Origin: Flavivirga spongiicola
GTDB taxonomy: Bacteria > Bacteroidota > Bacteroidia > Flavobacteriales > Flavobacteriaceae
Assembly: GCF_030540825.1 (NCBI RefSeq)
Contig: NZ_JAUOEO010000001.1
Location: 3,547,001-3,611,000, forward strand
Reading direction: 5' to 3'
Length of the DNA stretch: 64,000 nt
In this document: piece by piece, positions 1,516 to 33,815 of the stretch
How the letters are laid out: each line of letters opens with the position of its first letter
Position numbering within the stretch: the first letter of the stretch is position 1
The notes under the pieces: model-generated
The model's database searches: none
What the model was told of the DNA's origin: nothing
What the model saw: the letters and a program-made list of their open reading frames with translations, nothing else
Translations under genes and position numbers: made by a program

Positions 1516-4500
1516 TTAAAATGTTAAACTAAGTCCAAGTGTGGATATTACAGGAACCGGATAGCCTCCATTATCAACCCCAAAAGAAGTTGGAGAACCA
1601 CCTGCTTCTGGCGTAAAACCAGAGGTGTCCTTCCAAGTATATAAATTCTGAATGTTAGCAAATACTTTTAATTGCTGTATATTCAACCTTTCCAGGATTT
1701 TCTTATCAAGATTGTAACCAAATTGAAGGTTTCGTACTCTAAAGTAACTCCCGTCTTCAATCATATAGGTAGAAGGCTGTCTGTTATAATCTGTTGAAAA
1801 CAGTCTAGGTTCCCAATTTGATGATCCAGAACCGTCCCACCTGCCCGCTCTGTCTGCTCTAAAATTAAATTGTGCAAACGAATTTCCGTTACCCCAATTA
1901 CGGTATATCTCATTGCCGTAAACGCCTTGAAAATCCATATTCAAATAAAAGTTCTTGTATTTTAAATTTGTATAAAACCCATACGTAAAGTCAGGTGTTG
2001 GATTACCAATTACTGTTCTATCATCTGGAGTTATTTCACCATCGCCATTAAAATCCCTGTATTTGAGATCGCCTGGGGCATAATTACCTAAAGTACTAGG
2101 CGGTAGTGCAGCAATATCAGCATTTGATTGGTATACGCCATCTACGATATAGCCGTAGAAGTGCCCAATGGGCTCGCCAGTAATAGTTCTTGAAGCTGTG
2201 CCATTGGCAAATATTGGTGCATCTTCAAAAGTTGATAAAACTTCATTATTGATAGTGGTTATATTGCCTCCTACGGAATAACTGAAATTATCATTAAAAT
2301 TGCCATCCCATGAAGCTTCAAACTCAAAACCTTTATTTTCAATCTCCCCAAAATTATCAAAAAACGTCTGTACTCCAGTGTCAACAAATACCAATAAATC
2401 CTCAGTCTTTCTATTGTAGTAGTTGGCATTAAATGTCAATCTATTATCAAACCATCTTGACTCAAGACCAACCTCCCACATTTTTACAGTTTCCCATTTT
2501 AAATTTGGATTCTCTTCAAACTTTTGAATAAAACCTGCAATAACCTCACTTCCGAATACTGCTGTGGCGTCTTGACTTACCCCAGGGTAATATGGGTAGT
2601 TAGTACCACCTGGCAAGGCTTGGTTACCTAATGACCCTATAGACCCCTTTAACTTTAAATAATCTAAACTTTCAACATTATCCATATAATCTTCTTTTGT
2701 AACAACCCAACCAGCTCCAAGTGACCAAAAATCCTGAGCTCTATTATCAGGTGCCAATTGTGATGTAGCATCTCTACGATAAGACATGTTTAACAGGTAT
2801 TTTCCATCATAGTTGTACAACACCCTTGCCAAGAAAGAAGAGGTTGCTCTTTCAGATTGGCTTGAATTAGAAATTCTGGTAGAAGGGTCTCCGTAAGGAA
2901 ACACATTCAAATACCAAAACCTTTCATTATCTGGAATAATGCCAACTGTTGAATTTGGATCGTGTTCAACACTTCCAGAAACGTTTTCGAATTTAAATTG
3001 CGTTGTTGTAAAACCTGCAGTAGCATTAACCCCATGTCTTCCAAAATCTTTGTCAAATGAAAGTATGTAATCTTGCTGAAAATTAAATACCGTTGCACTT
3101 GATTGATTGACTCTTGTTATTTGATTTCCATTAAAGTTTTCAATGTCATCTGTTTCTGATACATATATTCCAACTATGGGCACATAAGATCTTGATCTAA
3201 AACTGTTAAAGTCGCCATAAACTGTAGCTTTAAATTTAAAATGCTTTAAAAAATCTACTTCCGCGAACATACTGCCTACAAAACGGTAACGCTCTGAAAT
3301 GTTTTTATTTTTAGTTACCTCAGCAACCAAAGCAGGATTTCCTATTTGCGGTCCTCCAATTTCAATAGGTAACTGATTATATAGACCATTAAACTCGGGT
3401 CTCACGTCCAAGTGAATGGGGTGTACAATAGGTGTTGCATTCAATGCTGCCCCAAAACCGCCATTATTTGGGAGTTTGTCTTGTAAACCATTCAGAGTAA
3501 GGCCCATTTTAAAGCCATCAGCAACTTTAAATTCATTGTTCAAATTAACTGTTAATCGTTGTAGCTTCTCTTTTTCTACCAATCCATCTTCTAAACGGTA
3601 TCCTAAGCCAAAAGAAATTTTATTTTTTTCTGTTGCAGTTTGGATGCTTATATTGCTGGTTTGAATGAGGGCTGATTCATTTGCGATGCGATCAACCCAA
3701 TTTGTATCTCCATTAAACACGTCGTAGAAACCAAATGGAGTTAAACCTTCATTTACCAGTTGTTCGTCATATAGCTCTCTAAAAAGAGCTGCATTGGCAA
3801 GGTTTGGTTCTCCTACTATATTTTTAATCCCAATTGAAGAATTAAAATTCACAGTTAACTTCCCTTCTTTTGCTTGCTTGGTAGTTACAATAATAACACC
3901 ATTTGCGCCTCTTACCCCAAAAATGGCCAACGACGAAGCATCTTTTAACACTTCAATGGATTGAATATCATTAGGATTTACAAAGTCGATATTGTCTGCA
4001 AATATCCCATCAATAACAAATAATGGACTTGAATTATACCTACTGCTTGTACCTCTAATTCTAATATCTGGGTTTTGACCTACTCTTCCAGAGTTTACAA
4101 CTGACAGCCCAGACACTTTACCTTGAATGGATGCAATAGGGTTAGTCGCTGGCTTATCAGCAACTTCATCTCCTTTAACACTAACAATTGAACCTGTTAA
4201 ATCACGTTTCTTAGCTGTACCATAACCAACAACAACTACCTCGTCTAATGACGCAATATCTGGCTCAAGTGAAATATTTACGGATATTTGATCTTGAATT
4301 TGTACTTCTACTGTTTTAAATCCCAGAAAGCTAAATTCTAAGACTTCTCCCTGGTTAACATTGATAGAATAATTACCATCAAAATCGGTACTTATACCTC
4401 TGTTTGTTCCTTTTACTATAACATTTACACCTGGCACTGGTATATTATCCTCAGCATTAACTACTGTACCGCTTATTGGTATGTCCTGTGCAAAAGCATG

Positions 4501-7728: not shown

Positions 7729-8667
7729 TTATCTCCAGTTAACAGGTGCATGCCATTTATTAGAATTAAGATCTCCATTGATATGATGGGTAATTGTTCC
7801 GGTTAAATCAATCGCCCAAGCCCTGCCATCAGTTGGAAACGCATTTGCTAATTGCTGCCTGTTCCATCTTGATTTGGTACAATTAACTGTTCTTTGAAAA
7901 TTTATTGGAAAAAATCGTGTTCGCCAACCTGAAGATGTAAATACACCTATATTTACCGAGCCACTGATATTGTATGTATAATTTCTTTCCTCTTTTTCTG
8001 CATATCTTAATTTATTCCTACTGTTTCTCCAATAAAGCTTGGTCTCAATGAACAAAAAAGCCGTGCTACCTGATCGTAAAGATTTTAGCTGTTGCGTATA
8101 CCTCATTTGACGACTGGAAGGCCCAAGGATTTTAACATTATCAGAACACCTTCGATACGCATTCCTCCAAAAATCTCTATGCGAATAACCTCCAGTATTA
8201 TTACCAGAAATATAAATTTTTGAGTAGTTATTTTCTTCTTTTCCATAACTGTCAAGTTCAACAATGGAAACCTCTAAGTTTTTGACTTTTTTAGAAGAGG
8301 ATTTTTGTTTATTAAACTCATAAAACGAACCTTCTTTATACCTTATAATATTGCCTCCCACCATAAATTCCAAGTCATTATTTAGAATAGCCATCAACCC
8401 ATAGGTCAATTGGTCGACTACTTCTAATAGCTTTTCATCTTCAGTAACCATTCCAGTCTCTAAAAATGGTGTGTAATTTTTCCCTGAAACAGCATTCAAT
8501 ACATCATATTCGTCTTCCAGTCCTTCGAGGTTTACATGATAGCTATGAAAACTATCCCAGTTTTCAAAACTAGCACCTTCAAAACTGTTCTCGAGCAAAT
8601 CGTTTTGTTCTTTTTCACATGCTGTTAGGCTAAGCAAACAGATGCTAATAAAAATTAGTTTTTTCAT
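7729..8667 (-). CDS. Hypothetical lipoprotein, 312 residues
   Basis: I do not recognise the family. The first 17 residues are a lipoprotein signal (LLSLTAC, Cys17), so the product is expected on the outer membrane or in the periplasm. After a Glu/Asn-rich N-terminus the chain contains a polar region with a Lys/Ser run (about residue 118) and a basic, aromatic-rich second half (RDFWRNAYRRCS, LYWRNSRNKLRYAEKEERNYTYNISG, SGWRTRFFPINFQRTVNCTKSRWNRQQ). It ends in a segment suggesting a compact beta domain. The flanking genes give no functional hint. A strong inverted repeat lies 76-103 bases upstream of its start. Confidence 0.75.
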   Translation of the reverse strand: MKKLIFISICLLSLTACEKEQNDLLENSFEGASFENWDSFHSYHVNLEGLEDEYDVLNAVSGKNYTPFLETGMVTEDEKLLEVVDQLTYGLMAILNNDLEFMVGGNIIRYKEGSFYEFNKQKSSSKKVKNLEVSIVELDSYGKEENNYSKIYISGNNTGGYSHRDFWRNAYRRCSDNVKILGPSSRQMRYTQQLKSLRSGSTAFLFIETKLYWRNSRNKLRYAEKEERNYTYNISGSVNIGVFTSSGWRTRFFPINFQRTVNCTKSRWNRQQLANAFPTDGRAWAIDLTGTITHHINGDLNSNKWHAPVNWR

Positions 8668-8742
8668 TTTTATAAATTTTAAAATATTTTTTAATTATTA
8701 TTTTTTACAAAGTCTTAAGAGGCAAACTACTTTTGGAACGTG

Positions 8743-8770
8743 ATAATTGCTTAAAGTGTTAAGCAATTAT
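8743..8770. promoter_or_regulatory. Perfect 12-bp inverted repeat, ATTGCTTAA half-sites
   Basis: ATAATTGCTTAA (8743-8754) and its exact complement TTAAGCAATTAT (8759-8770) are separated by AGTG. The inner half-site ATTGCTTAA/TTAAGCAAT is the same nonamer that forms the palindrome before the XRE/S24 repressor at 12247-12265, but in the opposite arrangement. It could be a repressor operator for the lipoprotein gene or a stem-loop in a transcript. The shared nonamer favours the former, weakly. Confidence 0.45.
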
Positions 8771-8854
8771 AAGAGCAATAAAACTGTACGAAGAAACAGT
8801 ATAAACCCTTCCTCTGGATGTTTAAATTGGGGACTTATTTCATAGGCTTATTAG

Positions 8855-8880
8855 AGTTACAAATTTGTTGTAATTTTTTT
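8855..8880 (+). terminator. Terminator-like stem-loop with T run
   Basis: AGTTACAA (8855-8862), loop ATTTG, then TTGTAATT with a run of seven T reaching 8880, reads as a weak Rho-independent terminator on the plus strand. No plus-strand gene lies upstream of it, so it would have to end a short untranslated transcript, or it is fortuitous in AT-rich DNA. Confidence 0.3.
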
Positions 8881-9234
8881 AATTCTAATTTCACCCTCCC
8901 CCTAGAGGTTTTTAATATGGAATTCTTATAAATTTAAACCATTATATTGAGTGTTTTTTCGTACGATTTATTTTTTAACAAAAAGTTAACATGTTTATTT
9001 GTAGTCTTCTAGCTTGTATTGGATTCAATAAAAAATTGAGATGTATTCACTTTTCTCTTAACATTCTAAGCATTTAAAAACTTCAATATTGCCGATTGTT
9101 TTTTATTCGCTTTAATCTTTTTTAGAATTTAGGATATTTATTAAGAGAACTGATTTTAATCATATTTGAAATTTTAGTGATTTAGTATCTTGAAGCACTC
9201 AGTAGCAGAGTGTCATAAATTAAAAACTGATGTT

Positions 9235-9515
9235 ATGGAAAAGATTAAAACCAATAAGTTTTGTCAAAGTTGTGGTATGCCCATTAAAAGCGATCCACAA
9301 AACGGAGGTACTCATGCAGATGGCTCTAAGAATATAATCTATTGTAGTTACTGTTACCAAAAAGGGGTTTTTTATTTAAAGGAACGGCTAAAGAAATGCA
9401 AACATTTTGTAAAGATAAAATGATGGAAATTGGTGTGTCAAGATTTAAAGCTTGGTTGTTTACAAGAGGTATTCCAAGACTAAAACGCTGGAAAAAAATA
9501 GAATTATGCAAATAG
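9235..9515 (+). pseudogene. Frameshifted zinc-ribbon (Zn_ribbon_2-like) protein
   Basis: The N-terminal half (from ATG 9235) reads MEKIKTNKFCQSCGMPI, then NIIYCSYCYQKG: two CxxC pairs of a small zinc-ribbon family. The frame is then lost at a six-T run (9368-9373) and stops at 9421-9423. Adding one T there restores an open frame (KGTAKEMQTFCKDKM, then WLFTRGIPRLKRW) that runs to a stop at 9513-9515. That stop overlaps the start of the next gene by 10 bases, a typical operon junction. The restored protein is about 93 residues, the usual family length. So a single-base deletion has broken a gene that looks otherwise intact. It may be a sequencing error, a recent mutation or programmed slippage. 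The GTG/TTG-like start at 9190 is less likely. Confidence 0.8.
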
Positions 9516-10261
9516 TAAACGTCACACCACAAAATGCTCAAGAAGAAACATTCTTTTGTATTAAAGACATAAAAAGACAAGGTTTTGAAGATAAACTCAA
9601 GTGGTTCGAGAAGCAATATAAAGAAGGGCTGAACTTGAGAATCTTAAAAGATGGGAATGATAAAATGATTGGTTTTATAGAATTTATTCCAGCTCCAAAA
9701 GCTTGGAGACCTATTGATGCCAATAATTTTATGTTCATTCATTGTATGTATGTGTACTCAAAAAAAGATAGAAGCAAGGGATATGGTTCTATGCTGATTA
9801 ATGAAGCAGAAAAAGAAGCTAAAAAAAATAAAATGGCTGGTCTGTGTGTTATGACCAGTAAAGGTTCCTGGTTAACTAATAAAACCATTTTTGAAAAATA
9901 TGGTTTTGCAGAAGTCGATAAAAGAGGTCGGTTTGAATTGTTATCAAAAAAATGGGATCAAGACGCTTTAAACCCAAAACTAATTGATTGGACGACGCAA
10001 CAGAAAAAATATAAAGGATGGCATTTATTATATGCAGATCAATGTCCCTGGAATGAAAAATCGGTATTTAATCTTTTAAATACTGCAATGGATTATGATA
10101 TTGATTTAAAAGTGACCAAAATAAATACGGCAGAAGAAGCTAAAAATGGGCCTTCAGGTTTTGGTGTATTCAGTCTTTTGCGAGATGGTAAGCTTCTAGA
10201 AGATCACTATATAAGTGCGACACGTTTTAGGAATATTCTCAAAAAAGAACTTAAAAAATAA
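9506..10261 (+). CDS. GNAT acetyltransferase with C-terminal YoaP-like domain
   Basis: A 251-residue two-domain protein. Residues about 1-150 form a GNAT N-acetyltransferase fold, with the acetyl-CoA loop region KKDRSKGYGSMLINEAEKEA (about 90-110) and the terminal ...NKTIFEKYGFAEVDKRG strand. Residues about 165-250 form a YoaP-type domain (WHLLYADQCPWNEKSVF), with a CPW segment reminiscent of thioredoxin-like folds. The substrate is unknown. The start at 9506 is chosen over an upstream one at 9452 because it begins the recognisable domain and overlaps the end of the (restored) zinc-ribbon gene. The toroid-protein gene follows 19 bases later, so the three genes probably form one operon. Confidence 0.82.
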   Translation: MQIVNVTPQNAQEETFFCIKDIKRQGFEDKLKWFEKQYKEGLNLRILKDGNDKMIGFIEFIPAPKAWRPIDANNFMFIHCMYVYSKKDRSKGYGSMLINEAEKEAKKNKMAGLCVMTSKGSWLTNKTIFEKYGFAEVDKRGRFELLSKKWDQDALNPKLIDWTTQQKKYKGWHLLYADQCPWNEKSVFNLLNTAMDYDIDLKVTKINTAEEAKNGPSGFGVFSLLRDGKLLEDHYISATRFRNILKKELKK

Positions 10262-10280
10262 TAGATTATTTAGCCCAAAA

Positions 10281-11204
10281 ATGATCACAAAACAAATCAT
10301 AACATGGCTTTTAGAAGGTGATGTTTCTATTCAATATCAAACCTATCGCGACTTGTTATCTAAAGATCATAAAAGTCTTCAAAACAGAATTGAGAAAGAA
10401 GGTTTTGGATTAGCGTTTTTATCGAAACGTCATAAAAACGGATATTGGGGAAGAGGATTTTATCAACCTAAATGGGCATCAACTCACTATACACTTCTTG
10501 ATTTACGTAATCTTTGTATTTCACCTAAGAATAAACCCATAAAAGAATCTATTGATAAAATTTTAAATGAGTGCAAATCAGGAGACGGTGGTATTTATCC
10601 TAACTCAAAGAAAAGTGATGTTTGTGTTAATGGCATGTTCCTAAATTATGCTAGTTATTTTAAAGCTGAAGAAAGCCAACTTAAATCGGTTATAGATTCT
10701 TTGTTGCTAGAAATTATGGCGGATGGTGGTTTTAATTGCAGATTAAATAGATCTGGAGCTATACACAGTTCTTTACATTCGACACTTTCGGTATTGGAAG
10801 GTTGCTCTGAATATGAAAACAATGGTTACAGATATCGATTAGAAGATGTGAAAAAGGCCATCCAGTTAGCAAAAGAATTTATACTTATACATCAACTTTT
10901 TCTTTCAGACATGACAGGAAAAATTATTGACAAACGTTTTTTGCAATTATCCTATCCAAGGCGCTGGAGGTACGATGTTTTGAGTGCCTTGGATTATTTT
11001 CAATATTCGAAAACAGCATGGGATGAGCGGATGCAATCAGCCATTGAAATTATGTTAAAAAAACGAAACAAAAATGGTGTCTGGAATGTTCAAGCCAAAC
11101 ATTCTGGAGAAACACATTTTGATATGGAAAAAGCAGGACAGCCTAGCAGATGGAATACGTTAAGAGTTTTAAGAGTACTAAAGCATTTTAGAATAGATAT
11201 ATGA
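10281..11204 (+). CDS. Squalene-cyclase/prenyltransferase-like alpha/alpha-toroid protein
   Basis: A 307-residue soluble protein built of helical repeats with the Trp/Gly/Asp-rich turns of the terpenoid cyclase/prenyltransferase alpha-toroid fold: GYWGRGFYQPKWASTHYTLLDL (about 50-72), SGDGGIYPNSKKSDVCVNGM (about 98-117), ADGGFNCRLNRSGAIHSSLHSTLSVLEG (about 150-178) and KNGVWNVQAKHSGETHFDMEKAGQPSRWNTLRVLRVLK near the end. No classical DxDD cyclase motif or membrane segment is evident, so the enzymatic role is unclear. An ATG at 10281 is preferred to the upstream in-frame start at 10215, which would overlap the GNAT gene by 47 bases. It is probably co-transcribed with the GNAT. Confidence 0.72.
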   Translation: MITKQIITWLLEGDVSIQYQTYRDLLSKDHKSLQNRIEKEGFGLAFLSKRHKNGYWGRGFYQPKWASTHYTLLDLRNLCISPKNKPIKESIDKILNECKSGDGGIYPNSKKSDVCVNGMFLNYASYFKAEESQLKSVIDSLLLEIMADGGFNCRLNRSGAIHSSLHSTLSVLEGCSEYENNGYRYRLEDVKKAIQLAKEFILIHQLFLSDMTGKIIDKRFLQLSYPRRWRYDVLSALDYFQYSKTAWDERMQSAIEIMLKKRNKNGVWNVQAKHSGETHFDMEKAGQPSRWNTLRVLRVLKHFRIDI

Positions 11205-11298
11205 ATTGTATTATAAAAACAAAGAAACCTTTTAAAGTGATAAATGTCATTTTAAGAAATGATAGATTAGGTTAAATTTACTAGTAAAATACATACTT

Positions 11299-12201
11299 AT
11301 GAAAACAATAATATATGCCACAGATTGTACTATCAATGATGTTTCATCTTTGCGATATGCCTATCGTTTTAGTTGTATTATGAAAGCAGATTTACACATT
11401 TTACATGTATATCAGTTTCCTCCAATTATTTTTTCAACCATTAAATCTACGGACACACTAAGAAAACGTTTTCAGAAAGAGAAAAAAGAGCTTGTAACTC
11501 AATATTGTGATACACATCTTAAAAATGAATTTTGTCCAAAACCAATTACTATACATGCCCTTGAAAATGTTTCAATTGCCAAAAGTATTCTGGATCTTTC
11601 CAAAAAACTATTTTCTGATTTGATTATTATAGGTATGAAAGATTCTTATACTACCCGTGGATACTTATCTGGTAACATTGCTGATGCATTATTAGATAAA
11701 ATTGAAATTCCCTTATTAATTGTGCCAAATGGTGTTGATTATAGCATGTTTTCTACTATATTATATGCTACCGATTTTGAAAAAGAAGATCTTATATCCA
11801 TTCAAAAACTTATAGAAATTGCAAGACCATTTAAAGCGCTTATAGAGGTTGTACATGTTTTTGAAGCGATTGAATATACAGCAAAAGAACATATGGAAAG
11901 ATTCAAAAAGGCTCTTTTAAAGGAAGTTTCATATCCGGAGATTACATTTAAAACGATTGCTTCTGGCAAAGTTAAATCTGGTTTGTTGAGTGTTTTAAGA
12001 AATGAAGATGTAAATATGTTGGTTATGTTAGAACGTAAACACAATTGGGAGCTTAATAACTTGTTTCATAAAGATTTAGTAAAAGAGATGGAAGCCACGG
12101 TTGCTATACCGATACTTGCCTTTAATAAGCGTAACACTAAACTTAAAAATGTAGATACACTCAATAGTAATGGAAATAATGGTTTGAATGTAATGGTTTA
12201 A
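11299..12201 (+). CDS. Universal stress protein with two UspA domains
   Basis: A 300-residue tandem-UspA protein. The first domain (about 1-143) starts MKTIIYATDCTINDVSSLRYAYRFS and ends with the nucleotide-loop region IIGMKDSYTTRGYLSGNIADALLDKIEIPLLIVP. The second (about 148-275) starts FSTILYATDFEKEDLISIQKLIEIAR. It ends with a degenerate loop (LVMLERKHNWELNNLFHKDLVKEMEATVAIPILAF), so only the first half may bind nucleotide. Such proteins are cytosolic stress-survival factors, often induced by starvation or redox change. It is a single gene 94 bases after the toroid gene and 76 bases before the XRE/S24 repressor. Confidence 0.88.
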   Translation: MKTIIYATDCTINDVSSLRYAYRFSCIMKADLHILHVYQFPPIIFSTIKSTDTLRKRFQKEKKELVTQYCDTHLKNEFCPKPITIHALENVSIAKSILDLSKKLFSDLIIIGMKDSYTTRGYLSGNIADALLDKIEIPLLIVPNGVDYSMFSTILYATDFEKEDLISIQKLIEIARPFKALIEVVHVFEAIEYTAKEHMERFKKALLKEVSYPEITFKTIASGKVKSGLLSVLRNEDVNMLVMLERKHNWELNNLFHKDLVKEMEATVAIPILAFNKRNTKLKNVDTLNSNGNNGLNVMV

Positions 12202-12246
12202 ATACAGATACTGCTTAATAAATTTTATGCAAAATCAGCTTTGTTT

Positions 12247-12265
12247 TTAAGCAATCATTGCTTAA
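12247..12265. promoter_or_regulatory. Palindromic operator candidate before the S24 repressor
   Basis: TTAAGCAATCATTGCTTAA is a perfect 9-1-9 palindrome ending 12 bases before the ATG at 12278. Its size and position fit autorepression by the XRE/S24 protein it precedes. A further partial half-site TGCTTAA lies at 12212-12218. The same nonamer recurs as an inverted pair at 8743-8770. The palindrome is read directly; binding is inferred. Confidence 0.6.
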
Positions 12266-12277
12266 TTTTGAAGCATT

Positions 12278-13054
12278 ATGAATCATATACAATCAAATAT
12301 TCGTCATTTAAGGACTTTAAAAGGGGTTTCTCAAGAATTTTTTGCGGAAGAGTTGAAGTGGACACGTTCCATGGTAAGTTCTTATGAAGAAAAGAGAACA
12401 GAACCATCTATCGTTAAATTGATAGAATTGTCTGATTATACAGGAATCCCAATCGATACGTTGATTAAAGTTGATTTAAGCAAAACAAAAGATATGTCTT
12501 TTATTGATATAGGAAGCAAGAGAGTGCTATTTCCGATTTCAGTAAATGAAGATAACGAAGATCTTATAGAAATCATTCCAACTCATGCTTCTGCTGGTTA
12601 TTTACAAGGTTATGCAGATCCCGAATATATCGAGCAGCTACAAAAAATCAAGCTGCCTTTTTTACCCACTGGCACCCATCGTGCATTTCCTATAAAGGGA
12701 GATTCTATGTTACCTGTAAAAGATGGCGCTTTTATAGTTGCGAAGTTTGTTGAAGATTTGCAAGATGTACAAGACGGTAAGACCTATATTGTATTAACTA
12801 AAGAAGATGGACTGGTATATAAACGAGTTTACAACAGAATTAAAGAGAGCAATAGCCTATTGTTGCATTCTGATAATAGGGCATATCAACCCTACGAAGT
12901 TAATATAACAACTGTCTTAGAACTTTGGGAGTTTACCTGCTGTATTAATACGCAAGAATATGATAAGGAAGAACTAAAATTAAGTAGCATTGTTAGTATG
13001 TTTCAAGAATTAAAGATCGAGTTAAAAGCAATTGATAAAAAGGCGATTATTTAG
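12278..13054 (+). CDS. LexA/CI-like XRE repressor with S24 autopeptidase domain
   Basis: A 258-residue regulator. Residues 1-62 form a Cro/CI helix-turn-helix (IRHLRTLKGVSQEFFAEELKWTRSMVSSYEEKRTEPS). Residues about 95-215 form a LexA-type S24 domain, with a likely cleavage bond Ala106-Gly107 (HASAGYLQGY), nucleophile Ser143 in FPIKGDSMLPVKDG and the general-base Lys in LVYKRVYN. All parts needed for RecA-stimulated self-cleavage are therefore visible. A C-terminal helix (about 225-258) may aid dimerisation. Its stop shares a base with the start of the nuclease gene, so the two are translationally coupled. A palindrome just upstream suggests autoregulation. It may be the housekeeping DNA-damage regulator or a prophage-derived one; no phage genes are nearby. 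Confidence 0.9.
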   Translation: MNHIQSNIRHLRTLKGVSQEFFAEELKWTRSMVSSYEEKRTEPSIVKLIELSDYTGIPIDTLIKVDLSKTKDMSFIDIGSKRVLFPISVNEDNEDLIEIIPTHASAGYLQGYADPEYIEQLQKIKLPFLPTGTHRAFPIKGDSMLPVKDGAFIVAKFVEDLQDVQDGKTYIVLTKEDGLVYKRVYNRIKESNSLLLHSDNRAYQPYEVNITTVLELWEFTCCINTQEYDKEELKLSSIVSMFQELKIELKAIDKKAII

Positions 13055-14415
13055 TGTATGCCATTGTCGATATAGAAACTACAGGACTTGGTGCCAGAGG
13101 TAATAAAATTACCGAAATTTCCATTTTTGTACATGACGGTACAAAGGTTATTAACGAATTTACCACTTTAGTAAACCCCGAAGTGCCCATCAGTTATGGT
13201 ATAACAAGATTGACAGGTATTACTGATGATATGGTTCGTAAAGCGCCCAAGTTTCACGAAATAGCAAAAGATGTTCTCGAGTATACCCAAGATTGCATTT
13301 TTGTAGCCCATAGTGTCAACTTCGATTTTAATGTTATTAAACATGAATTACAAGAACTAGGGTCTGAGTATAAACGTAAAAAACTATGTACAGTACGTTT
13401 GTCCAGAAAACTTATGCCGGGGCAACGGTCTTATAGTTTAGGAAATCTTTGTACGACCTTAGGTATCAAAATAAATGGGCGTCACAGAGCAAGAGGCGAT
13501 GCCGAAGCGACCGTCATACTCTTCGAAAAATTACTGGCATTAGATAATGACGATGTTTTTGATTCCTTTTTAAATAAGCGATCGCGCCAAGCAACCTTGC
13601 CACCGCTTTTACCAAAAAAAGTAATAGATGAGTTGCCTAATAAGACGGGTGTATATTATTTTAAAGATGTAAATGGTAAAGTGATTTATGTTGGTAAAGC
13701 CATAGATATCAAGCAACGTGTATTAAGTCATTTATATAGTAAAGCGAATAAGGAATTAAAACTATGTAACGATACAGCCAATATTACTTATCAACTTACG
13801 GGCAACGAATTTGTAGCCTTATTACAGGAGTCGGATGATATAAAACGGTTATACCCGAAATACAATCATGCTCAAAAGCGTAATAACCTTAGTTATGGTA
13901 TAGGTACGTATCAAGATAGGCAAGGGGTGATACATGTCATTTATAATAGTCTTAAAGTGCTTAAAAACCCTATTTTAAAATTTTATAATAAAAGGGATTG
14001 TATAGCATTTTTAGAAGCATTATGCGAAAAGCATGAGCTCTGCCCCAGATATTGCAACTTACAAAATATTACAGGTGGATGTTTTCATTATCAAATCAAA
14101 AAATGTAGAGGTGTTTGCAGGAATACTGAGGATATTCAATCCTATAATAAGAGAGTACAAAAGGCTTTGGAATTATTACTTAATAAGAACTCTTATGTCA
14201 TTAAAGAAGCTGGAAGAAAAGCGAATGAAGTAGCACTTATATTAATAAAAAATGGCACATATCAAGGGTTTGGCTATACTTCAAAATCAATAAAAAATGA
14301 TTCCCTTATAGAGGTTGAAAAAGCTATTCAACTTAAACAAGATAATGCAGATATACAGCGCATTTTAAATAGTTATCTAAACAAGGGGACAAATACTATA
14401 AACTATCTTAATTAA
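13054..14415 (+). CDS. DnaQ-type exonuclease fused to GIY-YIG (Cho/UvrC-like) endonuclease
   Basis: A 453-residue fusion. The N-terminal DEDDh exonuclease (about 1-165) shows Exo I (VDIETTG, Asp6/Glu8), Exo II (FVAHSVNFDFNV) and Exo III (HRARGDAEAT, His144/Asp149). A GIY-YIG domain follows (about 193-275: KTGVYYF and VIYVGKAIDIKQRV). The next segment carries cysteines 324, 330, 334, 343, 351 and 355 in the CPRYC...GGC...KKCRGVC pattern shared with Cho/UvrC-type proteins, where a metal or Fe-S site has been reported for UvrC. Such fusions act as UvrC-like incision nucleases in excision repair. It starts at GTG 13054, overlapping the repressor stop by one base (TAGTG), so its expression should follow repressor status. 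UvrC's C-terminal endonuclease domain is absent. Confidence 0.88.
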   Translation: MYAIVDIETTGLGARGNKITEISIFVHDGTKVINEFTTLVNPEVPISYGITRLTGITDDMVRKAPKFHEIAKDVLEYTQDCIFVAHSVNFDFNVIKHELQELGSEYKRKKLCTVRLSRKLMPGQRSYSLGNLCTTLGIKINGRHRARGDAEATVILFEKLLALDNDDVFDSFLNKRSRQATLPPLLPKKVIDELPNKTGVYYFKDVNGKVIYVGKAIDIKQRVLSHLYSKANKELKLCNDTANITYQLTGNEFVALLQESDDIKRLYPKYNHAQKRNNLSYGIGTYQDRQGVIHVIYNSLKVLKNPILKFYNKRDCIAFLEALCEKHELCPRYCNLQNITGGCFHYQIKKCRGVCRNTEDIQSYNKRVQKALELLLNKNSYVIKEAGRKANEVALILIKNGTYQGFGYTSKSIKNDSLIEVEKAIQLKQDNADIQRILNSYLNKGTNTINYLN

Positions 14416-14440
14416 AATGGTCAACTAAAGACATGAAATC

Positions 14441-14460
14441 CTTGTAAAAACAAGAGTTTT
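14441..14460 (+). terminator. Weak terminator-like hairpin after the nuclease gene
   Basis: CTTGT (14441-14445), loop AAAA, ACAAG (14450-14454), then AGTTTT. The 5-bp stem with a short T tract lies 26 bases after the stop codon. Position fits a terminator; stability is low. Confidence 0.3.
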
Positions 14461-14693
14461 ATGTTTAATAAGTGGAGTCAACGGGACAAAAGTCAAACTT
14501 TTTTATAGAGATTTGGATAGAATTAATAAGCTATAAATATTTGTGGTGTATCCGCTTTATTCTGCTATTAAGTATACTAATAAATACTCCAGGGTACCCA
14601 AATAGTAAAGAGCAACAGGAACTAGCAAACAGTTTAATTTCGTTTATTGAGAACCATATAAATTGGTAGCCTATTAAAGAAAAGAAATAACCG

Positions 14694-15563
14694 TTACACT
14701 TTATATTTTGAAATTAATTCTTGATTATTTTTAAACTCTCTAGGAGTGCATCCTTTTTTCTTTCTAAAGATGCGATTAAAATTTGATAGATTATTAAAGC
14801 CACATTCATAACCAATTTCGGCAATGGAATCCTCAGACTCAATAAGGAGACGTGCCGCATTCCCAACTCTAATATCATGAATGTATTCGGTGAACGATCT
14901 ATGTGTATGTCTTTTAAAGTAATGGCTAAATGCGGTTTCAGACATATTTACTAAATCAGCAGCTTCTTTTAGCTTAATATTTCGTTTAAAGTTTTGCTGT
15001 ATAAAATCAGAGACTACTTTAATGCGCTTGCTTTTACTGCTTTCAAATTTATTTACAAAAGAAGCGCTACTTAAAAGTGTTTGATTTCTCGAAATAGAAA
15101 GGTCGTATAAAATAGACAAAAATTCAAGGAAAGAGTCGAAGCCAGATTTATCACAAAGGTGCATGATGCGATCGGAGATGGCCTCTTGAGTTTCTAAAGA
15201 AAATAATATACCCCGATATGATTTGTCAATCATTTCTCGAATAGGAGTCATGAGTTTTCGATTTAAGGTTTCTTCAGAAAATAAACTCTGTTGAAATTGA
15301 ATGGTAATAACCCGGGCGTCATCATGATTATTATTTCCCATCCAAGCATGTGGTGTGTTGGGGCCAACTAATACAAGATCAGAATTATTATACTCTAATA
15401 TAGAATCTCCTATAATTCGTTTTCCATTAGAATTAAATACAAAGTTTAGTTCGAATTCCGGATGGTAATGAACCGGAAAATCAAATTTGGCGTGATAGTT
15501 ATTTAAGACTATAAAAAAGTCTTCAACTTTAATTGGAGTAATCTCTCTTTCTATAATACCCAT
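14694..15563 (-). CDS. AraC-family transcriptional regulator with cupin sensor domain
   Basis: A 289-residue regulator. Residues about 15-80 form an AraC-type cupin (YHAKFDFPVHYHPEFELNFVFNSNGKRIIGDS, then DLVLVGPNTPHAWMG) that would bind a small sugar ligand. Residues about 180-285 carry two helix-turn-helix units (IKLKEAADLVNMSETAFSHYFKRHTHRSFTEYIHD and SIAEIGYECGFNNLSNFNRIFRKKKGCTPREFK). It is transcribed away from the SusC-led operon starting at 15838 and shares its 274-base promoter region. It is the probable activator of that locus, responding to an intracellular product of glycan breakdown. Confidence 0.92.
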   Translation of the reverse strand: MGIIEREITPIKVEDFFIVLNNYHAKFDFPVHYHPEFELNFVFNSNGKRIIGDSILEYNNSDLVLVGPNTPHAWMGNNNHDDARVITIQFQQSLFSEETLNRKLMTPIREMIDKSYRGILFSLETQEAISDRIMHLCDKSGFDSFLEFLSILYDLSISRNQTLLSSASFVNKFESSKSKRIKVVSDFIQQNFKRNIKLKEAADLVNMSETAFSHYFKRHTHRSFTEYIHDIRVGNAARLLIESEDSIAEIGYECGFNNLSNFNRIFRKKKGCTPREFKNNQELISKYKV

Positions 15564-15677
15564 GATTCGTCTTAATTTAATATTTATAGATATTTAAATA
15601 TTGTTTACAAATATATGACTTAATTATTCATAAAAATATTATTATTATAAAAATATATAAAATATTGATAATTAATT

Positions 15678-15723
15678 ATTTATGATAATTTAGTGTCTAA
15701 TAATTTAATTTTTTATCATAAAT
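15678..15723. promoter_or_regulatory. 11-bp inverted repeat in the araC-susC intergenic region
   Basis: ATTTATGATAA (15678-15688) and TTATCATAAAT (15713-15723) are exact complements, 35 bases centre to centre, in the shared region between the divergent AraC gene and the SusC operon. The setting suggests an operator. AT-rich composition makes chance matches more likely, so confidence is modest. Confidence 0.35.
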
Positions 15724-15772
15724 GTATCGATATTAAACTTTAAAGCATTAGTTATTATACAGCATCATTGTA

Positions 15773-15780
15773 TAGATTTG
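15773..15780 (+). promoter_or_regulatory. Bacteroidota -7 box (TAgaTTTG) for the mannan operon
   Basis: TAGATTTG matches the TAnnTTTG -7 consensus and lies 58 bases before the SusC start codon, giving a leader of about 50 bases. No clear -33 TTTG was found at the expected distance, which would fit an activator-dependent promoter. Confidence 0.4.
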
Positions 15781-15837
15781 TCATCTAATCAAAAACTATT
15801 TTAAAACTAAACTATTTAAAAACTTAAGTTTTGACTT

Positions 15838-18800
15838 ATGAATAAAATTAAAGTAATATTCAAATTATCACTATTCACCTTATTTTTTATAGGAACAAGT
15901 AGTGCAATGGCGCAAAATCATCAGGTGGCAGGAGAAGTTAGGGGCGAGAATGGTGAAATTCTTCCAGGCGTTAATGTCGTATTGAAGGGAACAACCAATG
16001 GGGTAGCATCAGATTTTGATGGTAATTATTCCATTTCAGTAAATGATGCCCAAGGCGTACTAGTGTTTTCCTATATAGGATATGTAAACCAAGAAATCCA
16101 AATAAATGGTAATGCCACTATTAGTGTGATTTTGGAGGAAGACCAACAATTACTTAATGAAGTTGTAGTTATAGGTTATGGGGCGGTTAAGAAAAGTGAT
16201 CTCACAGGATCTGTAGCATCTTTAAAGGCGGATAATCTGGAAGAAACGCCCGCGTCGTCTGTAGATGCATTACTTCAGGGTAAAATAGCAGGGGTTCAAG
16301 TAACTCAAACATCCGGAGAACCTGGTGAAGGCGTTGCGGTGCGTATTAGAGGTTTGAGCTCTAGAGAAGGAAGTAACAGCCCGTTGTATGTCGTTGATGG
16401 TTTTCCCTATGGAGATGCAGGTAATTTAAAACAGTTAAATCCTAACGATATTGCTTCTATGGAAGTTTTAAAAGATGCATCTGCTGCGGCTATTTATGGA
16501 TCTAGAGGTGCCAATGGTGTTATTATCATTACAACCAAAAGTGGTAAAAATAACCAAAAAGCAAAATTTAAAATTACATCACAAACAGGAGTTCAAATTG
16601 TAGATCATGATAGGTTAAACCTTATTTCAGACCCCTTAACCTTTGCATCTATTAGCAATGAAGTTCGTATAAACGATACACGAAATGTAACACCACTTTA
16701 TATTGGTGCAGTTGATCAATCAACAGGAGTCTACTATCCGTCTTTAGTTGAAATTGCTAATGGATCTTGGGGAATTAATACCTACTGGCCAGACGTTATT
16801 TTAAGAGAGTCCGTAACTCAAAATGTAAATCTGTCTATAGCAGGTGGTGATGAAAATACGGCATATTCAGTTTCAGGAAATATTTTTGATCAAAAAGGAG
16901 TCTTAATAGGTAATGATTATCAAAACTTCACCTTTAGAGGGAAACTGGACCAAAAAGTAAGTGGTAAGTTTAAGTATGGAACAAATTTGGCGCTTAGCTA
17001 TATAAAAAGAAATAAAACCTTGTCTGGTGCCGGTATCGGCCGTTCACCGTTAATTCCTGTTTATAATGAAGATGGAACCTATTATACAAATGGAGCAGGC
17101 GATTTTTATAACCCGGTAATGTTGGCCAATGAAGTAACCGATATAAGTAATGAATACGATTTAAATGCTTTGGCATATATAGATTGGGATATTATGGAAA
17201 ACTTAAAATTAAGAGCCCAATCAGGGATTAATTTAGGGCATGCTATTGGTGATTATTATGAGCCTAGAACTACCTCGTCTGGAAATATTTTTAACGGTCT
17301 TGGAGAAATTAATAATTACACAGGGTATACGTTTTTAAACGAGACCTATTTAACTTATAAAAAAACATTTAACGACAAACATGCTGTTTCTGTAATGGGA
17401 GGTTATTCTAGTGAGCAAAGACAGGTGAGAAAGTCAAAATTAAGAGGTGAAGGTTTTGTTAACGATGCTTTAGGAAATGAAAATTTAAATTCTGCAACAA
17501 CACGAATTTTTGAAAATAGTTTAGTAAAGCAAGTTTTACAATCCTTTATATCAAGAATAACTTATGGTTTTGATGACAGGTATTTATTGACCCTTTCTGG
17601 AAGATATGATGGTTCTTCAAAGTTTGGTGCACTGGATAAGTATGGATTCTTCCCTTCAGGAGCCATAGCCTGGAAAGTACATAATGAGAATTTTATGGCA
17701 GATCAAAATATTGTGTCTACTTTAAAATTAAGAACCAGTTTTGGATATTCTGGTAACCAGGCGATTGATGCTTATGCAACCTTGAATCAATATGGACAAA
17801 GAAAGTATTTTGTTGGAGAGGTGCTTGTTAGTGGATATGGACCGTACCAAAATGGAAATCCGGCATTGAAATGGGAAACCACATCGCAACTAGATTTCGG
17901 TTTAGACCTTGGGTTTTTAAATAATAGAATCACATTAACGGCCGATTACTACCGTAAAGAGTCTACCGATCTTTTAAGAAAGAAGAATTTACCATATTCA
18001 TCAGGCTTTGATGATGTATGGATTAATGGAGGAGAAATTTTGAATACGGGTTATGAAGCGTCTATTGATGCTGCAGTACTTACGGGAGAATTTAAATGGA
18101 ATGTTTCAGGAACATTTTCGCACAATGAGAATGAAGTTGTTGATATAGGGGAAGAAGGTACTGGTGACGGATTAAGGACTGGTAGTGAGATTGAATCTTT
18201 TCGTGATTATCCAACACGTTGGAGAAATGGAGAGCCTATGAATATTATTGTTGGCTATAAAGTTGATGGTATTATTCAAACACTGGCAGAAGGACAAGAA
18301 GCAGGTTTGGTAGGAGATGAGGCCATGCCGGGTGAATTTAAATATGTTGATATAAGCGGACCGGATGGCGTGCCAGATGGTGTTGTAAATGAATTGGATA
18401 GAACTATTATAGGAAACACTCAACCTGATTTTACAATAGGCTTTAATACAGAGTTTGAATATAAAAATTTCGACCTGAGTGCTCAATTTTACGGTTCTAT
18501 TGGTAATGATATCGTGGCCATTAAAAAGTTTGAAGGACAACGTTCTTTAAACCGATGGACGGTTGATAATAGGACAAATGAATGGCCGAGTTTAAGAGGA
18601 GGTCGATTAAATAAAATATCAGATTGGTGGGTTGAAGACGGTTCGTTTCTTCGTATATCAAATGTAACACTGGGTTATAATTTACCATCTCGAGCAATAT
18701 CTGGAATAGAAAATTTACGAATCTATGTGACTGGAACAAATTTGCACACATTTACAGATTTTTCAGGAGCAGATCCAGAAATTGAAGGAGGCGTAGATTA

Positions 18801-18855
18801 TGGAACATATCCAAAATATAAGACATTCACCTTAGGTTTAAACTTGACTTTTTAA
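15838..18855 (+). CDS. SusC/RagA-family TonB-dependent transporter (mannan locus)
   Basis: A 1005-residue SusC-type outer-membrane importer. It has a signal peptide (1-25, ...AMAQ) and a carboxypeptidase-like beta domain (VAGEVRGENGEILPGVNVVLKG). The plug follows, with LLNEVVVIGYGAVKKSDLTGS (about 100-120), SPLYVVDGFPYG and AAAIYGSRGANGVIIITTK (about 215-235). A long TonB-dependent barrel ends in LGLNLTF. It is the first gene of a plus-strand operon with SusD 19 bases after it. The neighbouring beta-mannosidase and GH130 genes suggest the cargo is a beta-mannan or gluco-mannan oligosaccharide. It is clearly diverged from the other SusC at 1516-4545. Confidence 0.95.
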   Translation: MNKIKVIFKLSLFTLFFIGTSSAMAQNHQVAGEVRGENGEILPGVNVVLKGTTNGVASDFDGNYSISVNDAQGVLVFSYIGYVNQEIQINGNATISVILEEDQQLLNEVVVIGYGAVKKSDLTGSVASLKADNLEETPASSVDALLQGKIAGVQVTQTSGEPGEGVAVRIRGLSSREGSNSPLYVVDGFPYGDAGNLKQLNPNDIASMEVLKDASAAAIYGSRGANGVIIITTKSGKNNQKAKFKITSQTGVQIVDHDRLNLISDPLTFASISNEVRINDTRNVTPLYIGAVDQSTGVYYPSLVEIANGSWGINTYWPDVILRESVTQNVNLSIAGGDENTAYSVSGNIFDQKGVLIGNDYQNFTFRGKLDQKVSGKFKYGTNLALSYIKRNKTLSGAGIGRSPLIPVYNEDGTYYTNGAGDFYNPVMLANEVTDISNEYDLNALAYIDWDIMENLKLRAQSGINLGHAIGDYYEPRTTSSGNIFNGLGEINNYTGYTFLNETYLTYKKTFNDKHAVSVMGGYSSEQRQVRKSKLRGEGFVNDALGNENLNSATTRIFENSLVKQVLQSFISRITYGFDDRYLLTLSGRYDGSSKFGALDKYGFFPSGAIAWKVHNENFMADQNIVSTLKLRTSFGYSGNQAIDAYATLNQYGQRKYFVGEVLVSGYGPYQNGNPALKWETTSQLDFGLDLGFLNNRITLTADYYRKESTDLLRKKNLPYSSGFDDVWINGGEILNTGYEASIDAAVLTGEFKWNVSGTFSHNENEVVDIGEEGTGDGLRTGSEIESFRDYPTRWRNGEPMNIIVGYKVDGIIQTLAEGQEAGLVGDEAMPGEFKYVDISGPDGVPDGVVNELDRTIIGNTQPDFTIGFNTEFEYKNFDLSAQFYGSIGNDIVAIKKFEGQRSLNRWTVDNRTNEWPSLRGGRLNKISDWWVEDGSFLRISNVTLGYNLPSRAISGIENLRIYVTGTNLHTFTDFSGADPEIEGGVDYGTYPKYKTFTLGLNLTF

Positions 18856-18874
18856 AAAAACAAAATCATTACAT

Positions 18875-20362
18875 ATGAAAACATTCAAATATTTAATTCT
18901 AATTATTACTGGCGTATCGTTTTTTGCTTGTTCTTTGGAAGAGAAGCCAAATGGATTCCTAAACGAGGAGAATTTTTATAAAACAGCTGGCGATGCAGAA
19001 TCTGCAGTGTTGTATGCCTATGCGGTGTTTCCAGAATTGGGGTATTTCTCAAGATACTACTATTATGTGGCACATTGTGCTACCGAAGAATTTACTCAAA
19101 AATCGGATGCAGAGGCAGGTCAGCACGAACTGGATAATTATTTAACAACAAATACTACAGCTGATCTAGCAAATGTATTTCGCCATTGCTATTTAACTAT
19201 TAATAGAACATTTCCAATTATAGAAAATGTGCCTGCCATTTCTATGGATGAAGGTTATAAAAATCATATCATCGGAGAAGCACATTTTTTAAGAGCCTAT
19301 AATTATTACAATTTGGTACGTCTGTTTGGCGAAGTTCCACTTCGAAAAAAAACGATGACTGATTTTAATAGTGCGGGATTAGATTTATCGTCTATAGAAG
19401 ATATATATGCTTATATCCTCGAAGATCTTCAAGCAGCAATAACATTAATGGATATTCAATACCGATATGGAAGAGCAAATAAAACTGCTGCACAAGGATT
19501 ACTGGCAAATGTTCATTTGTTTTTGGCATCAGCTTCAGAATCGGGATTAACAGGCTATGGATTTGCAGACGTATCAGGAAACTATAGTCTGGCGAAACAA
19601 TATGCTGGAGAGGTTGTAAATAATCAAACACAATTTAGATTGGATCCGGATATTCAAAATATTTTTGATCCCGTACAAAATTTAAGCCCAACATCCAGCC
19701 CGGAAAACATATTTAGTATCGTAGCTTCAAGAAGCGAAATAGGACCTACAAATCTTATGAGTCTGCTGTCTACACCTTTTGTGCAAACAGGGTTTACACT
19801 AATACCAGAGCAAGGTGGACATACTATAGACTTTGGTTGGGACCATGTTATTGTAGAAACCCCTTTCTATGATTCTTTTGATGCCACGGACCGTAGAAAG
19901 GAACTGCTTTTTATGACGTCATATATCGATGCCTCAGGGAATCTTATTAATACAAATAATGATAGACCCTATACTTTAAAGTATTTAGATGCCAATCGTT
20001 CTGGAGGAGAAGAATCTGGAAACCGTATTTCTATTGTGAGGTATTCTGAAGTTCTGCTTACTTATGCCGAAGCCTGTGGAAATACTGCAGATGGTGTTGA
20101 TGCTTTAAATCAGGTAAGACAAAGGGCTAATTTAAGCACGTATACTGTAGGTGATTTTGCAAGTGATACGGCCTTTAGAGATGCTGTTATACAAGAACGT
20201 GCATGGGAACTTGCTTTTGAGTTTAACAGATTATTTGACCTAAGAAGATCAGGTAAAATGGGGCAGGTTTTAGGAAATGCACCTTACAATAAGACGTTGA
20301 CAAATGGGGTCTACTTCTTTGATATCCCATTTAATGAGATAGATAGAAATCCAAACTTATAA
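18875..20362 (+). CDS. SusD/RagB-family lipoprotein (mannan locus)
   Basis: A 495-residue SusD-family glycan-binding lipoprotein. The lipobox (VSFFACSLEEKP, Cys about residue 19) is followed by the SusD N-terminal helical block (EAHFLRAYNYYNLVRLFGEVPL near 130-150) and the C-terminal signature (IVRYSEVLLTYAEACG, ALNQVRQRANL, IQERAWELAFEFNRLFDLRR, YFFDIPFNEI). It pairs with the SusC directly upstream and should hold oligosaccharide at the mouth of the transporter. The surface glycan-binding lipoprotein gene begins 16 bases after it. Confidence 0.94.
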   Translation: MKTFKYLILIITGVSFFACSLEEKPNGFLNEENFYKTAGDAESAVLYAYAVFPELGYFSRYYYYVAHCATEEFTQKSDAEAGQHELDNYLTTNTTADLANVFRHCYLTINRTFPIIENVPAISMDEGYKNHIIGEAHFLRAYNYYNLVRLFGEVPLRKKTMTDFNSAGLDLSSIEDIYAYILEDLQAAITLMDIQYRYGRANKTAAQGLLANVHLFLASASESGLTGYGFADVSGNYSLAKQYAGEVVNNQTQFRLDPDIQNIFDPVQNLSPTSSPENIFSIVASRSEIGPTNLMSLLSTPFVQTGFTLIPEQGGHTIDFGWDHVIVETPFYDSFDATDRRKELLFMTSYIDASGNLINTNNDRPYTLKYLDANRSGGEESGNRISIVRYSEVLLTYAEACGNTADGVDALNQVRQRANLSTYTVGDFASDTAFRDAVIQERAWELAFEFNRLFDLRRSGKMGQVLGNAPYNKTLTNGVYFFDIPFNEIDRNPNL

Positions 20363-33412: not shown

Positions 33413-33423
33413 TAAAATATTTG

Positions 33424-33815
33424 TGGAGTCGGAGAGAATCGAACTCTCGTCCAAACAAGTAATCAAAGAGCTTTCTACACGTTTATTCTTTTCTTGGTTT
33501 TTCGATTATAAGCTAGTTAAAGACAACCCACTTATAACTTATCTTTTTTAGTTTCAAAAAGGCATCAAAGCGCTACCTAATCTATGTTAACATTTACGAT
33601 GCCTCAAAATGGAACGCCGTTAACAAAGGCTTTCCGGAGACATAAAGCTTGTACACCTTGTGTACCTAGGCTAATCCTACTATAATTCGGATTATGCAGC
33701 TAAAGCGTAGTTATTCTCGCCGTTTAAAATTTGATCTAGCCTTTAACGTGTTTCAATGTCATTACACGACGTGCTTACCGTTCAATTAATCTCGCTGTCA
33801 AAACCAGTCGACCCC
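33424..33815 (-). ncRNA. ssrA: Transfer-messenger RNA (tmRNA)
   Basis: The minus strand starts GGGGTCGACTGGTTTTGACA, the typical tmRNA 5' end, and ends GGACGAGAGTTCGATTCTC...CGACTCC, the T arm and acceptor. Seven acceptor pairs form (GGGGTCG with CGACTCC, one G-U). The tag reading frame at 33692-33721 encodes GENNYALAA followed by TAA, the usual flavobacterial degradation tag. The CCA end is not encoded (CAA follows the discriminator A), so it must be added afterwards. It rescues stalled ribosomes with SmpB. Length is about 392 nt, a one-piece tmRNA. Confidence 0.95.

Follow-up and report, generated by a model that had tools for sequence, protein, structure and literature searches.

How is a repressor of the self-cleaving type tied to a DNA-cutting enzyme, and which letters of the promoter does it read? 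This question is raised by two adjoining genes of Flavivirga spongiicola that lie in the window, the 64,000-nucleotide stretch of DNA analyzed here. A sequence-only reading had described a perfect 9-1-9 palindrome 12 bases ahead of an S24 repressor with Ala106-Gly107, Ser143 and a catalytic lysine, and a DnaQ-GIY-YIG nuclease overlapping the repressor gene by one base; it took the palindrome for the operator of a compact SOS-like unit. All of these elements are present (Table 1), with the repressor stop and the nuclease start joined as TAGTG, 12 bases between the end of the palindrome and the repressor ATG, and Lys182 as the lysine. Elsewhere in the window, a GNAT acetyltransferase fused to a YoaP-like domain is encoded at 9452-10261, and a tmRNA gene with the tag GENNYALAA lies on the minus strand at 33423-33815.

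Table 1. Genes, candidate operator dyads and candidate promoter elements of the two-gene locus (positions within the window).
Feature	Position	Strand	Remarks
Repressor ORF	12278-13054	+	258 aa; ATG at 12278
Nuclease ORF	13054-14415	+	453 aa; GTG start
9-1-9 palindrome, TTAAGCAAT-C-ATTGCTTAA	12247-12265		Inner half-sites of O1 and O2
Candidate operator dyad O1, GCTTT-GTTTT-TAAGC (GCTTTGTTTTTAAGC)	12238-12252		GCT-N9-AGC; holds -33-like TTTG
Candidate operator dyad O2, GCTTA-ATTTT-GAAGC (GCTTAATTTTGAAGC)	12260-12274		GCT-N9-AGC; holds -7 box
TTTG, candidate -33 element	12240-12243	+	19 bases ahead of -7 box; consensus from the available excerpt of PMC6847099
TAATTTTG, -7 element	12263-12270	+	Fits consensus TAHHTTTG from the available excerpt of PMC6847099

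Pfam divides the repressor into an HTH_3 and a Peptidase_S24 domain. The motif GDSM begins at residue 141 and contains Ser143, while YKRV begins at 181 and contains Lys182. Among 100 aligned homologues, window included, Gly107, Ser143 and Lys182 are each found in all and Ala106 in 98. The other two have Met at the cleavage bond, a replacement also seen in 5 of the 46 rows of an alignment of more distant homologues (partly from Flavobacteriaceae too). An AlphaFold model with a mean pLDDT of 58, used for the limits of the HTH helices only, predicts these at residues 4-15, 19-26, 30-37 (the recognition helix) and 45-55; a C-terminal helix at 235-244 is predicted with low confidence. No canonical LexA winged-helix domain was found in the repressor with Pfam, which returned only HTH_3-type domains at E 0.1.

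Repressors of this build have a literature. In the available excerpt of PMC8565304 (Sanchez-Osuna et al., 2021), the SOS response of Bacteroidetes is controlled by S24 repressors whose DNA-binding domains are CI-like and which act at GGA-N5-TCC or CTAA-N5-TTAG dyads, as followed by shift assays and mitomycin C induction; genes with signs of regulation include a GIY-YIG exonuclease (COG0847) as well as the repressor's own gene (COG2932). The earlier impression that such a regulator-nuclease pairing is little described in Bacteroidota is not supported, since both the repressor family and the exonuclease as its predicted target are found there; that the two form an operon is not stated in the excerpt. 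By its sequence, the window repressor fits this non-canonical LexA family. Neither CTAA-N5-TTAG nor GGA-N5-TCC occurs in exact form in the window promoter; the 4-N5-4 layout and the 22-bp spacing are present. We did not treat the exact letters as defining because PMC8565304, as excerpted, reports drifted palindromes in paralogs and keeps their regulators in the family. In a quick tree, with types set from promoter boxes and no named references from the paper, four GGA-type rows fall on one side of a branch (support 100) where long branches meet, and the window repressor falls on the other, CTAA-type side. Among nine GGA-type repressor promoters (L202-L210), eight hold two to four GGA-N5-TCC boxes, with starts often 18 and 23 bp apart.

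If the repressor belongs to a family with 4-N5-4 dyads, is the 9-1-9 palindrome its operator? Its presence exceeds chance: when the 76-bp intergenic region was shuffled by single bases 20,000 times, palindromes of such size (arms of at least 9, spacer of 0 or 1) arose in 54 of the shuffles. The window contains three. The exact string is present as a single copy in the 5.9-Mb genome. With up to 3 mismatches, 15 places were found there (own site included) against 22 for a control pattern, and a regulon of palindrome copies elsewhere in the genome was rejected, the near matches being at chance level only. The palindrome is best read as the right half of O1 joined to the left half of O2, two dyads whose centers lie 22 bp apart, because this geometry is shared with promoters carrying paired boxes. 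Outside Flavobacteriaceae, 6 of 33 repressor promoters (L248, L250, L251, L252, L254 and L257, all of family f4) carry a pair of exact CTAA-N5-TTAG boxes at a distance of 22-23 bp; a further 10 have at least one such box, with boxes 33 or 66 bp apart in two of them, and 17 have no exact box. Idealized to four half-sites, GCT-N9-AGC-N7-GCT-N9-AGC, the layout was reached (at least 31 of 47) in 77 of 101 related repressor promoters, the best score among one shuffle per promoter being 30, with a consensus that had been written by eye from the very promoters then scored.

The palindrome could also be a single dimer site in its own right (AGCA-N5-TGCT), leaving the outer half-sites as auxiliary or promoter parts. 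No other dyad of the window promoter is as perfect (9 of 9 pairs), and over 66 distinct operators matched pairs average 2.86 of 4 at the junction dyad, above the 2.74 of O1 and the 2.05 of O2. Perfect 3+3 cores favor the tandem dyads (31 at O1, 36 at O2, 24 at the junction), so symmetry is an indecisive judge between them. The six f4 promoters speak for separate sites, as they place two distinct 4-N5-4 dyads at the O1 and O2 positions, and in 18 of the 66 operators O1 forms a 4-N5-4 dyad without any mismatch, several of these operators having an imperfect junction. Mutating such dyads or their spacer abolishes binding, according to the excerpt of PMC8565304. We consider the single-site explanation unlikely; the palindrome probably marks where two tandem 4-N5-4 dyads adjoin, rather than an operator unit. 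Comparison does support an operator in the promoter, with letters that follow the recognition helix of the repressor (see below).

The tandem dyads would cover the promoter itself. One candidate element lies in each dyad, the -33 element being of a kind reported as weak in the excerpt of PMC6847099. Transcription is predicted to start at or near 12275, which would leave the mRNA a leader of some 3 nt. Of the Flavobacterium psychrophilum mRNAs examined in PMC9723704, 5.5% are leaderless.

The 77 loci above the layout cut reduce to 69 different pairings of operator and HTH. Residue 34, within the predicted recognition helix, has the highest excess mutual information with the operator among residues 2-66 (half-sites HS1, HS2 and HS4 tested). 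Repressors with Ser34 have C as the third base in 84 of 84 half-sites counted, while nearly all of the 176 half-sites of Gly34 repressors have C (88) or T (86) there. Three Ala34 repressors and one Met34 repressor above the cut have AAC or CAC at all four half-sites. Loci below the cut were left uncounted, among them two with Ser34 (L042, L179) and two with Ala34 (L177, L178); in the promoters of the last two a different half-site recurs, one that ends in GTACC, which adds another drifted operator type. Part of the pattern is due to relatedness. A tree-aware test on well supported branches gave five independent pairs, all of which agree over the four half-sites (p 0.0625, a sample too small for significance); taken by half-site, agreement averaged 4.5 of 5 for HS2 and 3.3 of 5 for HS4, with no pair opposite. 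Across the counted loci, operator letters vary with residue 34 of the repressor.

The second gene encodes RNase_T (DnaQ, DEDDh) and GIY-YIG domains and a region with four cysteines. In an alignment of 94 nuclease rows, in which the window probably appears twice, 92-94 rows keep D6, E8, D91, H144, D149, Y201, Y212, R222 and E259, and as many keep C330, C343, C351 and C355. In UvrC, such a Cys pattern is the iron-sulfur site. Sequence searches for solved relatives found exonucleases of the DnaQ type and the N-terminal domain of UvrC, and a structure search returned exonucleases among the 50 matches listed. The NCBIfam model for Cho matches residues 188-376 (profile positions 25-214 of 289). UvrC itself was rejected as an identity, since its equivalog model matches only at positions 3-204 of 574; a Pfam scan of the nuclease found no UvrB-binding domain and neither the C-terminal endonuclease V-like nor the HhH domains of UvrC. 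The architecture appears to be Cho+Exo-like. Proteins named Cho+Exo or Cho-like+Exo in the excerpt of PMC1564403, where a mycobacterial homologue is cited, likewise have an N-terminal DEDDh domain, GIY-YIG and four cysteines. The window nuclease differs from them in its operon with an S24 repressor and in a C-terminal part assigned neither to the Cho-specific nor to the UvrB-binding domain.

Among 299 Flavobacteriaceae genomes, 201 have a repressor match at 1e-10. The locus sample comprised 84 listed matches at E up to 1e-60, window included; 20 of the weaker matches were fetched as well. The nuclease lies directly downstream of the repressor in 35 of the 84 loci, which supports the earlier view that a self-cleaving type of repressor and a repair-type nuclease share one operon. 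The 24 of 101 promoters below the layout cut include those of 9 of the 35 paired loci. In 61 of the 84 loci, a polymerase gene (dnaE or Y-family) runs divergently from the other side of the promoter, starting no more than about 350 bp upstream. Polymerase and nuclease occur together in 19 loci; the nuclease is the only one in 16 (window included) and neither is seen in 7, two counts that are upper limits because many loci hold only about 1.5 kb per side and a few end at contig ends.

Judged by such comparisons, the window operon would most likely be a reduced form of the SOS mutagenesis hub of its relatives. The nearest of them (L016) has dnaE, repressor and nuclease, and a genome of the window's own genus (G009) has dnaE and repressor, with the nuclease not adjoining. 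The dnaE of the hub scores above the general alpha-subunit cut-off and below that of the error-prone subfamily. At 1e-60, one genome out of 12 in the genus has it, and none was found in the window's genome, where the replicative polymerase, necessarily present, went likewise unreported. In the repressor tree, the lineage of the window and L016 lies inside a 21-row clade that is otherwise unpaired; in the nuclease tree, the two belong to a clade of six, four members of which are stand-alone genes. Changes of pairing number 13 in the repressor tree. The nuclease tree has 9 (at least 8 of them forced), a rough count because some of its solo nucleases sit at the end of a contig or next to a truncated repressor fragment (e.g., L025, L035). 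These repeated changes indicate that linkage of repressor and nuclease was made or lost repeatedly. A GNAT acetyltransferase directly follows the SOS repressor in 6 of the 84 loci. Since a similar gene occurs in the window's own genome in the order umuC-umuD-GNAT (L049, C1:1772000-1779000, at 1639-3895 on the minus strand), the acetyltransferase of that cluster may also belong to the SOS response.

What else could this repressor control in its own genome? It is the one member of the non-canonical LexA family found there (E 0.001), the only other S24 match being a UmuD-like protein adjoining umuC. The tandem operator occurs once in exact form, and the next best four places have 2 mismatches; a search for whole tandem operators found no second at 0-1 mismatches. 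The control with the reversed pattern (9 against 29) is not a fair null because that pattern has other letters. Of the SOS genes of the genome, the promoters of umuC-umuD and dinB were compared; both are without the operator, and these genes were rejected as targets. At least one nuclease match at 1e-60 occurs in 273 of 299 Flavobacteriaceae genomes, and the window's genome has a second paralog (L072) without boxes of the GGA-N5-TCC or degenerate CTA types. The 200 bp ahead of 43 stand-alone nuclease loci hold neither GGA-N5-TCC (0 of 43, with 0.65 expected) nor degenerate CTA-type boxes; the 43 include the duplicates L017/L102 and L024/L105 and 12 copies of the widespread second paralog (L061-L072). 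With boxes absent at all 43, there is no visible sign at these loci that the nuclease is an SOS gene.

Such results could suit a repressor that regulates the nuclease operon and itself independently of damage, with the S24 domain serving for dimerization or another signal: umuC and dinB have no operator, a second tandem operator was not found, and the stand-alone nucleases have none of the SOS boxes sought. This reading would leave unexplained why the cleavage bond and the catalytic pair are nearly invariant and why polymerase genes start across the promoter in so many loci. The family members tested were moreover induced by mitomycin, as the excerpt of PMC8565304 has it, and we regard damage-independent control as quite improbable. 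A defense or mobile-element module, made of a phage-type repressor and a DNA-degrading effector, is hardly credible, for while the repressor matches phage repressor families (PHROGs) and the exonuclease domain the candidate defense models PDC-S48 (PADLOC), the latter matches span residues 1-185 or less, the repressor family is tied to polymerase genes in many genomes, and the ORFs at 8000-20000 look chromosomal by eye (five were scanned with Pfam).

We return to damage control, and consider it likely that the two genes form an autoregulated, damage-inducible operon with a single tandem operator. From the layout and from the relatives, repressor dimers would bind O1 and O2, covering the -33 and -7 elements and keeping both genes silent. 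DNA damage would give rise to RecA filaments and these to self-cleavage at Ala106-Gly107, as the family and its conserved residues suggest. The promoter would then open, and repressor and nuclease are predicted to be made from one near-leaderless mRNA. The GIY-YIG domain may nick beside the lesion and the DnaQ domain trim, an idea based on the proposal quoted in the excerpt of PMC1564403 for the mycobacterial Cho-exonuclease fusion. Once cleavage ends, fresh repressor would close the promoter again.

A wider picture is offered more tentatively, as a fair-sized possibility that we hold with some doubt. One tandem operator may serve in Flavobacteriaceae as a portable slot for SOS control, flanked by polymerases to one side and by the DnaQ-GIY-YIG nuclease to the other, each gained or lost repeatedly, and with residue 34 re-tuning the four half-sites in concert. 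The window would be the limit case, a private circuit with the nuclease as the sole target besides the repressor.

Comparison with the systems in the excerpt of PMC8565304 shows where this circuit stands. With the CTAA-N5-TTAG group, whose predicted targets include a GIY-YIG exonuclease and polymerases, it shares the CI-like HTH with S24, the Ala-Gly bond, the Ser-Lys pair and 4-N5-4 dyads in its own promoter. It differs in a GCTT/AAGC core instead of CTAA/TTAG, in the one tandem operator found in the genome and in the absent polymerase arm. The regulator of Elizabethkingia anophelis (TTAC-N5-GTAA; Fig. 8 of that paper) is of the same family and has a drifted dyad like that of the window; it adjoins an error-prone polymerase gene, as many relatives of the window repressor adjoin polymerase genes, whereas the only family member found in the window's genome is partnered by the nuclease.

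The circuit looks real and recurrent and belongs to a known kind; its operator has drifted, its regulon seems reduced and its partner is a nuclease. The surprise is limited in that the regulator family has already been published (PMC8565304, as excerpted). If true, it would link DNA-damage control and polymerase genes to a DnaQ-GIY-YIG nuclease whose role is unproven, and it would offer a natural series of matched repressor-operator changes from which specificity could be read. It would also show how far an SOS regulon can shrink, down to one operator and one effector.
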